From Nitrospirota bacterium (GTDB lineage: Bacteria > Nitrospirota > Leptospirillia > Leptospirillales > Leptospirillaceae): a stretch of 64,000 nucleotides of DNA. The translations under genes were made by a program, and so were the position numbers. The stretch is from positions 1-64,000 of the forward strand of contig JAJYGC010000016.1 of the NCBI GenBank assembly GCA_021785195.1, in the 5' to 3' direction. The notes under the pieces are model-generated. The model ran no database searches. It saw nothing but the letters and a program-made list of their open reading frames with translations, and was not told the origin of the DNA. This document shows positions 14,353-19,288 of this stretch, one piece after another. The first letter of the stretch is position 1; each line of letters opens with the position of its first letter.

Positions 14353-14541
14353 CTACTCCGACTGAAACCTCACGGAGTCGTGGGACCCGTCGCAAAAGGG
14401 TTTGATCTGGGATCCGCCGCAGCGACAGAGATGATGGGTCATGCTTTCCGTTTCGGTTACGTTCTCCGAGGCATCTGTGATCCGGACCGGTCCGCGCAAC
14501 TCAAAGGGACCGTTTTTCTGACAATGGATCTGGGATTTCAT
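14353..14541 (-). CDS. CDGSH-type iron-sulfur protein
   Basis: A 62-residue protein. It carries the full CDGSH motif in HLCRCGGSQIKPFCDGSH: C-x-C-x2-S-x3-P-x-C-D-G-S-H, the three cysteines and one histidine that hold a redox-active, labile 2Fe-2S cluster. The N-terminal half has the beta-strand pair ITDASENVTETESM. In bacteria such short proteins are thought to serve in iron or redox handling. AGGAGGGG precedes its ATG, and the start overlaps the stop of the upstream lipoprotein gene by 4 nt, so the two are co-translated. Confidence 0.88.
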   Translation of the reverse strand: MKSQIHCQKNGPFELRGPVRITDASENVTETESMTHHLCRCGGSQIKPFCDGSHDSVRFQSE

Positions 14542-15011
14542 GGAACCCCTCCTGTTTTATGGAACGACTGATTGTCCGCCCGGGAAGACTGGGGCATGAC
14601 AGTGATCTGAAAGTTTTTCGCATCGGTCCACCATCCCGTAGGCTGCTCCAGAAGGCCCCCTGGCGTGGCGTGGTCGGTCTTGAGCCGGATGAACACGAAC
14701 GGTACCCCCAGCCGGGTATTCGTCATGATGACCCGGACTTCGGTTTGGGAGGGGACCCACCGAATCAAGTGCCGGTTGCGCAGGGCCCTGTTGAGGTCCT
14801 CTCGGCCTGCCACGTAAGCCGCCCACCCGTCCTTGAACGCATGCACGGAACGGCCCAGGAGAACCGGGACCCTTTCGTCGTCGGGCATGACCAGACGGCC
14901 TTTTTCTCCCGCGTAAATTTCCCCCGCGGTGGGGTAATAGGTGACCGGATCCTTGTTTTGGGTGCAAGAAAGCAGAAACAGTGACACGATGAAGACACTT
15001 CCTTTTTTCAT
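14538..15011 (-). CDS. small lipoprotein
   Basis: A 157-residue protein with a lipoprotein signal (SLFLLSC; Cys at about 16) and no recognised domain. The mature part contains EIYAGEKGRLVMPDDERVPVLL and RVIMTNTRLGVPFVFIRLKTD, giving a mostly beta-strand appearance. A GGGGGA site precedes the ATG. It is the first gene of a two-gene unit with the CDGSH protein. Function is unknown. Confidence 0.7.
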   Translation of the reverse strand: MKKGSVFIVSLFLLSCTQNKDPVTYYPTAGEIYAGEKGRLVMPDDERVPVLLGRSVHAFKDGWAAYVAGREDLNRALRNRHLIRWVPSQTEVRVIMTNTRLGVPFVFIRLKTDHATPGGLLEQPTGWWTDAKNFQITVMPQSSRADNQSFHKTGGVP

Positions 15012-17394: not shown

Positions 17395-17943
17395 TCACCG
17401 GATCTGGTCGACCGGGAACCCGGGCGGGATTTGGTCGGGCAGGATGACTCTCCCGCTCAGGGCCCGGGGTTGTCCCCCCCCGTCGATCAGGAGATGGGCC
17501 GTTGTCACCCGGAGAAACCGCGACCGGATGGCGGGGTAGGTCGTTTGGGTCCTGGCCCGGACGATCGCCTCCCGGTACTCCGCGGCGTAGGCGCCCAGGA
17601 TTCTCCCCAGGTGCGGAGGAGGCATTCCTTGCCAGGTCACCGCGAACACGGTGCCGCCGGGAGTGACGTATTCCCGATAGGTCCGGGACGACGAGGTGAT
17701 GATGTGGATGCGGACCCCTCCCTGGGCCTGAAGGAGGGTGTGGGTCCCGGCGGAAACCGTACGGTCTCGGGAAACGGTCGCTTCGTCCTCCCCCAACGTG
17801 GCCCACGCGCGGTCGGGTCCGAGGGCTTCTCCCGCCAGGAGCGCCGACAGGACGATCAAGAGGGCCAGCCCGCCGGGGGAGAAGAGGTGTCCCCGCGAGC
17901 GTTGGGTGCGCGTTCCGGTCGTCGTTTTCACAGTCTTTCCCAT
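17395..17943 (-). CDS. exported DUF2844-family protein
   Basis: A 182-residue protein with an N-terminal hydrophobic export signal (LALLIVLSALLAGEALG) and cleavage expected near RAWATLGED. The mature part has the family's hallmark: TLGEDEATVSRD and REYVTPGGTVFAVTWQGMPPPHLGRILG. The family is known in proteobacteria as an uncharacterised exported protein, often next to DUF3443 genes. The ATG is 34 nt after the stop of the DUF3443 gene on the same strand, so the two form an operon. I assign no function; the pairing suggests the products work together in the envelope. Confidence 0.82.
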   Translation of the reverse strand: MGKTVKTTTGTRTQRSRGHLFSPGGLALLIVLSALLAGEALGPDRAWATLGEDEATVSRDRTVSAGTHTLLQAQGGVRIHIITSSSRTYREYVTPGGTVFAVTWQGMPPPHLGRILGAYAAEYREAIVRARTQTTYPAIRSRFLRVTTAHLLIDGGGQPRALSGRVILPDQIPPGFPVDQIR

Positions 17944-17977
17944 TCCAGCGAATCGTTCATTCCGGGGTTTCTTTCCT

Positions 17978-19288
17978 CTAGAAGGCCCAGTAGGGGCCGG
18001 TTCCCAGTGAAGACGCTCTTGTGTTGATCCCCACATAGACGTCCCGTCCGAAGAAAAAAGGCAACCCCCAATCGAATCCCCCCCCCTGCATCCCGATGGT
18101 TCCCACCACCGGGTATTGGAAGGAGGGTGCGGCGATGGAGAAATCGATAGTGGCGGACGGGCTTCCCCCGTCGCCCGCAATCTTGGCCGAAAGGGAAACG
18201 GGAGACGAAGGACAGTAGGTACTTGTGTTGGGACTGGCGCAGGTTGAAAGACTGTCGGTGAAGTAATAGGCTGGGGATCCCGAATCGATGAAGGCAAGGT
18301 TCGGGTAAGTGGAGCTCGAAAAGGTTGTTCCCTGGAAGGTGGTGTCGAACACAAAATTGGGCTGGCCCGACGCGGGGTAGGCCGTGACCCCGGATGCCGG
18401 GGTGTTGTTCGATTCGGTGCCGATGCCGAGGATGAGGGTCCCGGTCAGGGTGGAGGATCCGGCGGCCGCCGGACAGGGGATCGAGAGGATCACGCCAGTG
18501 TTGTCGCTCGGAAGGGACGCCACCGGGTTCTGGTCCTGACTGGACTCTGGTAGGGGGGTGGGGCTGCAGGTGGTCGAGGAACAGGTGAAGTAGTAATTAT
18601 TACTTGAATGGGTGGTGCAAGAGGTCCCGCACCAGTGGATCCCCAGCCCTACCCCCAGGATCCCGTTATATCCCGCCTGGGTGGGGCTGGTATCCGGAGC
18701 GAAAGTGGAGCCGCAGGAAGTATTCCCGGAGCTGGAAGACCCTGACGAGGTGTATTGGCCGGCATACGTGGGCTCGATGATCTGGATCGGAATGGGGACA
18801 GCCTGTTCTCCCCCCAATGTGACATAGGCTTGGACCAGCGGTCCCCAGTCCCCGTAGGATCCGTTTCCGAACCGGGCGCACTCGCCGACCGGGGATCCCC
18901 CTACGGTGATGGGAGAGTAGGATCCAGAGGAACTCAGGACCGAGGAGAAGATCCGGACCCCTGAGGATCCGGTGTCGACCAGCATGTTCGAGATGGTCTG
19001 GCAGTTGGTCCCCGAAGAGGGACAAAAGGTCACGTCGGTACAGGGGGCGTTGATGAAATTTCCACAGATCGTGTTGCCTCCGGTGCTCCCCAGATAGATG
19101 GGAAGGGTGTTGGGACCGGAGGCTGGTGGGGTGGCCGTCTGATTGGGGCAAGTGCTGAGAATCGGTCCAGTATTCCCCTGATTGCCACCCCCTCCACCGC
19201 ATCCGGGGGTCAGAAGGAACGCAAATCCCAGTCCAAGGCAGAGGAACACCTTTCTCAACATTCTGGGAGGGGTGAGAACGATTGGCAT
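17978..19288 (-). CDS. DUF3443-family lipoprotein with pepsin-like motifs
   Basis: A 436-residue lipoprotein: signal ending in FLLTPGC (Cys 30) followed by a Gly-rich linker. The mature domain is Ser/Thr/Gly/Cys-rich. Two aspartates sit in pepsin-style motifs: VDTGSSG (Asp about 105) and IDSGS (Asp about 335). Between them is YNGILGVG, much like the GILGLG segment of pepsin-fold proteases. This two-lobed arrangement suggests an aspartic-protease-like fold; activity is unproven. Twelve or more cysteines may form disulfides. AGAAGGGA precedes the ATG. It is followed by the DUF2844 gene. Confidence 0.82.
   Translation of the reverse strand: MPIVLTPPRMLRKVFLCLGLGFAFLLTPGCGGGGGNQGNTGPILSTCPNQTATPPASGPNTLPIYLGSTGGNTICGNFINAPCTDVTFCPSSGTNCQTISNMLVDTGSSGVRIFSSVLSSSGSYSPITVGGSPVGECARFGNGSYGDWGPLVQAYVTLGGEQAVPIPIQIIEPTYAGQYTSSGSSSSGNTSCGSTFAPDTSPTQAGYNGILGVGLGIHWCGTSCTTHSSNNYYFTCSSTTCSPTPLPESSQDQNPVASLPSDNTGVILSIPCPAAAGSSTLTGTLILGIGTESNNTPASGVTAYPASGQPNFVFDTTFQGTTFSSSTYPNLAFIDSGSPAYYFTDSLSTCASPNTSTYCPSSPVSLSAKIAGDGGSPSATIDFSIAAPSFQYPVVGTIGMQGGGFDWGLPFFFGRDVYVGINTRASSLGTGPYWAF

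Follow-up and report, generated by a model that had tools for sequence, protein, structure and literature searches.

We suggest that two adjacent genes in the window, the whole 64,000-nucleotide stretch of Nitrospirota DNA analyzed here, encode an exported, outer-membrane-anchored aspartic protease and a dedicated partner, DUF2844, that would act on this protease as a detached inhibitor or chaperone; we consider this reading of the pair rather likely as a whole, with the protease as its likely part and the inhibitor or chaperone role as a tentative, weakly supported hypothesis. Both open reading frames are intact and lie head-to-tail on the minus strand, with 34 nt between the gene for the DUF3443 lipoprotein (17978-19288; 436 aa) and that for DUF2844 (17395-17943; 182 aa, with a start codon that is not certain). 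The initial annotation had assigned the products to these two families and had described the second as a small exported partner 34 nt on, and both statements are borne out: DUF3443 (PF11925) scores 324.8 bits against a gathering cut-off of 25 over profile positions 14-367 of 367, and DUF2844 (PF11005) scores 100.2 bits against a cut-off of 22.4 over positions 1-130 of 130. If our reading is correct, two families of unknown function become one concrete enzyme-partner system.

Active-site motifs and predicted fold of DUF3443

The DUF3443 lipoprotein, a predicted bilobal pepsin-like aspartic protease, carries a signal peptide, a lipobox cysteine (Cys30) and two catalytic-type aspartates, Asp105 and Asp335. 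VDTGSSG, NGILGVG and IDSGS follow one another in the order that had been reported, as the N-lobe active-site motif D105-TGSSG110 (18959-18976), the N-lobe psi-loop motif N208-GILGVG214 (18647-18667) and the C-lobe active-site motif D335-SGS338 (18275-18286), all on the minus strand. LVDTGS and FIDSGS both fit the pattern Xaa-Xaa-Asp-[ST]-Gly-[ST]. Across 76 aligned DUF3443 homologues, drawn from Nitrospirota whole genomes and from a scan of a species-level genome collection, D105 and D335 are invariant in 76 of 76, which answers the question raised earlier of whether both aspartates are conserved; G110, G149, G212, F405 and G408 are likewise invariant, and both aspartates are kept in four plasmid-borne copies from Burkholderia and Paraburkholderia. 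Because the motifs are conserved in 76 homologues, they are not chance occurrences. The first motif is mostly DTGS, with a minority of DTAS, DTMS, DTGD, DIGS, DYGS, DFGS and DVGS, while the second is DSGS (49) or DTGS (23) in 72 of the 76. DTAS, DIGS, DYGS or DFGS, with both aspartates retained, occurs in copies from the family of the window genome (L014, L020, L021 and L022), and these copies are possibly weakened or altered enzymes.

An AlphaFold model of the DUF3443 protein, computed with the homologue alignment, is two-lobed and almost all beta (pLDDT 86.9, pTM 0.87). Foldseek returned 423 matches in the PDB at E<=0.001, and all 50 matches listed are pepsin-like aspartic proteinases, the best being endothiapepsin (E 4.6e-11, probability 1.00), with secreted Candida proteinases and BACE1 among the matches listed. 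The comparison with pepsin and A1 structures that had been proposed as a check is thus in line with a two-lobed beta protein. Against pepsins, TM-scores by query are moderate, at about 0.4-0.47 with most in the range 0.42-0.47, and those by target reach 0.59, which suggests the same fold as in pepsins with loops and lobe orientation differing. On the basis of this model, we regard the fold as almost certainly pepsin-like.

At the level of sequence, DUF3443 is related lobe by lobe to clan AA, with Asp_protease_2 as the yardstick and the catalytic aspartate in register. Pfam Asp_protease_2 matches 10 of the 76 members (hmmscan, best 6.4e-5), covering the N-lobe in L081, L047 and L010 and the C-lobe in L018 and L084. 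Aligned as profiles, the N-lobe and single-lobe Asp_protease_2 score 39.9 against a maximum of 15.1 over 30 column shuffles (P 1e-5), placing D105 on the aspartate of the DTG motif and G212 of NGILGVG on the glycine of the hydrophobic-hydrophobic-Gly psi-loop; the corresponding alignment of the C-lobe is weaker (P 0.02). When the two lobes were compared with each other as profiles, the Asp motifs came into line, but the score was exceeded by at least one of 30 shuffles, and we therefore do not count this self-similarity as evidence. ORFs that weakly match DUF3443 and Asp_protease_2 together are found in L026, L030, L133 and L143 (G093); they may form a family intermediate between proteins with one lobe and proteins with two.

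Other features set DUF3443 apart from family A1. None of the 76 members has Pfam Asp (PF00026) among its matches at E<=1, and a PDB sequence search with DUF3443 gave no solved relatives and no pepsin. In the flap-equivalent segment, F140-GNGSYGDWG149 (18842-18871, minus strand), the Tyr75-equivalent position, assigned by motif order, is Phe140 in the window protein and F in 65 and Y in 11 of the 76 homologues; W148 is present in 68 of 76 and G149 in all. A1 proteins have two psi-loops of the hydrophobic-hydrophobic-Gly type, while DUF3443 has I-L-G in the N-lobe and F-D-W-G in the C-lobe. The latter belongs to F405-DWGLPFFFGRDVY418 (18035-18076, minus strand), a strand-helix-strand segment in the model and the equivalent of ILGDVFI..Y in pepsin, and from this pattern Asp406, which is present in 74 of 76 aligned proteins and replaced by Val in one Burkholderia copy, is placed at the first hydrophobic residue of the psi-loop. 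In pepsin (Ile300) and HIV protease (Ile84), this residue faces the substrate, and a preference of DUF3443 for a basic P1' residue, conferred by Asp406, is a speculative possibility. A single-lobe dimer of the retropepsin type does not describe the protein either, because a single chain holds both lobes and both Asp motifs. The window protein does not match PF20729, and two homologues match it weakly (below the cut-off where seen, best E 2e-4). Because several strict tests of A1 membership failed, DUF3443 is best filed within the pepsin/retropepsin superfamily as an exported family of its own, with a pepsin-like layout and not A1 by sequence. The description "pepsin-like" in the initial annotation thus holds for the fold and the active-site layout but not for membership of MEROPS A1 by sequence, given the lack of a Pfam Asp match, the flap Phe and the altered C-lobe psi-loop.

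Export, anchoring and distribution

In the window protein, the signal peptide is followed by the lipobox FLLTPGC30, in which the Pro at position -2 is non-canonical, while the lipobox of most homologues is standard and leads into Gly-rich sequence. A Cys is present in the lipobox column in 60 of 76 aligned proteins, and 62 of 105 homologues pass an automatic lipoprotein pattern, with GCGG recognizable by eye in most others. By the rule known from E. coli, Gly rather than Asp at position +2 suggests from sequence that DUF3443 would be located in the outer membrane. No prosegment separates the lipid anchor from the catalytic domain; the model shows only a linker of low confidence up to about residue 44, and its confidence climbs from about residue 50 onward. 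In Geobacter-group proteins (L035, L044, L053, L062 and others), this linker is expanded by at least one Ig-like repeat, as if to reach outward from the anchor.

The claim of twelve or more cysteines was conservative, as the window protein has 16. C30 is the lipobox residue, and ten others are 75-100% conserved among the 76 homologues: Cys 89, 96, 137 and 192 are invariant, 236, 241, 350 and 359 almost so, and 220 and 224 present in 75%. The ten probably form five disulfides. Mature DUF3443 proteins also have few Lys and Arg residues and an acidic character (median pI 4.1; a net negative charge in 91 of 91), and such a body is a known trait of pepsins. As a group, the family suggests disulfide-rich and possibly acid-stable enzymes.

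DUF3443 was confirmed, by one peptide pattern, in 291 stretches of the genome collection, from Nitrospirota, Desulfuromonadia/Geobacter, Syntrophaceae, Acidobacteria, Betaproteobacteria and Bdellovibrionales/Oligoflexia, and it is present in 26 of 198 Nitrospirota genomes; relatives of the window pair include named Nitrospirota/Nitrospira records, and the family with which the source genome groups points to a probable Leptospirillum-like acidophile as host. Two-lobed pepsin-like proteases are described as uncommon in bacteria, mostly located in the cytoplasm and lacking signal peptides; mycobacterial PecA is the exception at the surface. In view of these counts for DUF3443 alone, the earlier remark that such proteases are rare in bacteria needs qualifying; the family would be a large multi-phylum group of exported, lipid-anchored two-lobed pepsin-like proteases with a conserved partner, and it bears on the origin of bilobal pepsin. 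A single copy was found in the source genome, which is incomplete (1.41 Mb, 64% complete), and none was found in phages. One genome (G056) has three copies, two of them divergent (L018 and L027) and without DUF2844 within flanks of 1.5 kb. NCBIfam has no model for the pair. A search of the open-access literature found no paper on DUF3443 or DUF2844, and the matches to these names were Plasmodium gene identifiers.

Linkage to DUF2844 and proposed function

DUF2844 has a Sec signal with a predicted cleavage site AWA|TLG, and the N-terminus of the mature protein, A|xLG, is strongly conserved. Its AlphaFold model (pLDDT 82.6) has the order H-EEEE-H-EEE, that is, a helix and four strands followed by a helix and three strands, and matches periplasmic structures weakly in Foldseek (4h0a, E 4.4e-3; 4hbr, E 0.14). 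One DUF2844 member has a weak match to PepSY_2 (E 0.017), and PepSY families are almost absent in Nitrospirota. A profile search for an internal repeat in DUF2844 found none.

In a set of the best 80 of the 291 confirmed stretches, DUF2844 adjoins DUF3443 on the same strand in 72; five of the remaining eight, those with enough flank, have no DUF2844 near DUF3443. This adjacency spans Nitrospirota, Desulfuromonadia, Acidobacteria, Betaproteobacteria and genomes of the Bdellovibrionota type. Among the 198 Nitrospirota genomes, 23 have both genes, three only DUF3443, one only DUF2844 and 171 neither (Fisher p 9e-26, a value inflated by kinship). DUF2844 comes first in 91 of 97 neighbor pairs and DUF3443 in six, so the window has the minority order. 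Two distinct clades show the swap (L001/L011/L025, which is that of the window, and L004/L046/L055), and the pair was kept both times. The tree distances of the two families correlate at 0.81 against a permuted maximum of 0.23, a correlation inflated by common species history, and in genomes with two pairs some partners track their own gene (e.g. L038 and L073). A net basic charge is found for DUF2844 in 72 of the 91 pairs; in a small background of exported proteins, however, 49% are basic and 38% are as basic as DUF2844, and this control weakens a charge complementarity with DUF3443 to one that is only suggestive. On the strength of adjacency, co-occurrence, tree distances and order swaps, we consider it likely that DUF2844 is a physical partner of DUF3443. 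Co-transcription of an unrelated envelope protein, with adjacency resulting from operon drift only, would fit the five loci that have adequate flank and lack a nearby DUF2844, as well as the variation between loci of the neighbors other than the pair. Adjacency in several phyla, the co-occurrence (p about 1e-25) and the retention of the pair through two independent changes of order make this explanation very improbable.

The neighborhood of the pair varies. In the window, the pair has as neighbors genes for a carbonic anhydrase-like protein, a DNA alkylation repair (HEAT) protein and GGDEF and EAL proteins, and a small putative lipoprotein (MKKGSVFIVSLFLLSCTQ...) without a Pfam match is encoded at 14538-15011 on the minus strand. 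A search of the flanking ORFs for a conserved third gene found only a sensor kinase/response regulator cluster that recurs, in 25 loci, and is not universal. In some Geobacter-group loci, this cluster (BaeS-like by eye) is directly upstream of DUF2844-DUF3443 (L056:2741-4850 and L051:41-2157), a hint of envelope-stress control of the pair. On plasmid pBGF2 of Burkholderia glumae (NC_010879; L150), DUF2844-DUF3443 has cheZ on one side and flhB on the other, within a chemotaxis/flagellar region. Tandem DUF3443 duplicates follow one DUF2844 in L074:5501-8345, and tandem DUF2844 copies precede one DUF3443 in L041 and L089.

Based on the model and the conserved motifs, we consider DUF3443 likely to be an active protease. 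Through a Gly/Pro/Thr-rich linker, Cys30 would anchor it in what is probably the outer membrane, and its catalytic domain (about residues 58-436) would adopt the pepsin-like two-lobed beta fold with about five disulfides as braces. D105 and D335, facing each other, would activate a water molecule, and the enzyme would cleave envelope or extracellular proteins within extended peptide segments. Several points count against a protease, i.e. the flap Phe, the F-D-W-G of the C-lobe, the variant N-lobe motifs, the moderate TM-scores and the lack of a Pfam Asp match. DUF3443 could instead be a catalytically dead binding or scaffold protein with a pepsin fold, and DUF2844 its ligand or subunit. The flap Phe, the altered C-lobe psi-loop and, in some members, the variation in the residue that follows the first Asp would suit such a protein, and inactive pepsin-fold relatives exist (PMC2761423), as in plant xylanase inhibitors and pregnancy-associated glycoproteins. 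However, the known inactive relatives have lost a conserved active-site Asp (PMC2761423), whereas both aspartates of DUF3443 are invariant across the alignment and the four Burkholderia/Paraburkholderia copies, and the window protein has intact DTGS and DSGS; a dead enzyme is, therefore, unlikely.

In our preferred reading, Sec-exported DUF2844 would bind the DUF3443 protease as a detached inhibitor or folding chaperone and thus play in trans the role that the pepsinogen prosegment plays in cis. We favor this role because the protease has no prosegment, because the partner is small, exported and co-inherited, and because its model weakly resembles small periplasmic domains proposed as inhibitors (PMC2954215); we advance it tentatively over a role as substrate or any other. 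As a dedicated substrate, DUF2844 would be processed to a functional or signalling species. Its position next to DUF3443, the co-inheritance of the two genes, the shared compartment and the strongly conserved mature N-terminus, as is possible for a processed product, are consistent with this, but the conserved residues (F100, W104, G157, G164 and P173) lie scattered through a compact domain in the model, where no conserved linker suited to cleavage is obvious, and we consider a substrate improbable. In a more far-reaching version of the inhibitor/chaperone reading, which we put forward as a doubtful idea, DUF2844-DUF3443 would be a widespread "split pepsinogen", in which an outer membrane-anchored protease of the pepsin type that lacks a prosegment is held inactive or folded by a mostly basic PepSY/BLIP-like partner encoded in a gene of its own and released by acid or another envelope cue. 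If true, the protease would act in an acidic periplasm in acidophiles such as the probable host, and DUF2844 would possibly be a new kind of protein inhibitor of aspartic proteases.

Comparison with known systems

In Pfam, DUF3443 and DUF2844 are names without function, and the window proteins lie far above both cut-offs. Plasmids of Burkholderia and Paraburkholderia carry an annotated pair of these two neighbors as well; the order in the window is the minority one. Small periplasmic proteins of the BLIP, PepSY-like and DUF2874 type, whose tandem repeats of a helix and four strands have been proposed to act as inhibitors, may resemble DUF2844 in their small size and in the tandem layout of helix and strands (PMC2954215); there is no significant sequence relation, and the structural matches have Foldseek E-values from 4.4e-3 to 0.14.

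DUF3443 shares with the eukaryotic A1 proteases, for instance endothiapepsin, the secreted Candida aspartic proteinases and BACE1, a two-lobed single chain, two D[TS]G motifs in order, an N-lobe ILG and an acidic body poor in Lys and Arg. It differs from them in having no sequence match in the PDB or to Pfam Asp, in the flap Phe, in the F-D-W-G of the C-lobe and in the lack of a prosegment, as well as in its lipid anchor, its cysteine pattern and its adjacent partner gene. Replacement of the flap Tyr75 by Phe was described in 2009 as never having been shown in an active enzyme (PMC2761423).

Among bacterial proteins, the shewasins are A1 homologues that, like DUF3443, are bilobal, lack a prosegment and in some cases have Phe75 in the flap (PMC2761423, PMC4814920). 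Shewasins are, however, cytoplasmic, without a signal peptide and described from seven species (PMC2761423, PMC4814920), whereas DUF3443 carries a lipid anchor, is exported and occurs much more widely. In mycobacteria, PecA has been proven to be a pepsin-like protease at the surface, and an Asp mutant of it is inactive; it and the C-terminal domain of PE_PGRS16 (PF20729) resemble DUF3443 as surface-located bacterial pepsin-like proteins with DTG/DSG motifs; unlike DUF3443, PecA belongs to the PE_PGRS family and is exported by type VII secretion (PMC6819658). Finally, the secreted retropepsin-like Rlo proteases of Pseudomonas aeruginosa are also exported bacterial aspartic proteases in an envelope context, but they are of the retropepsin type and have other operon partners (PMC12239564).
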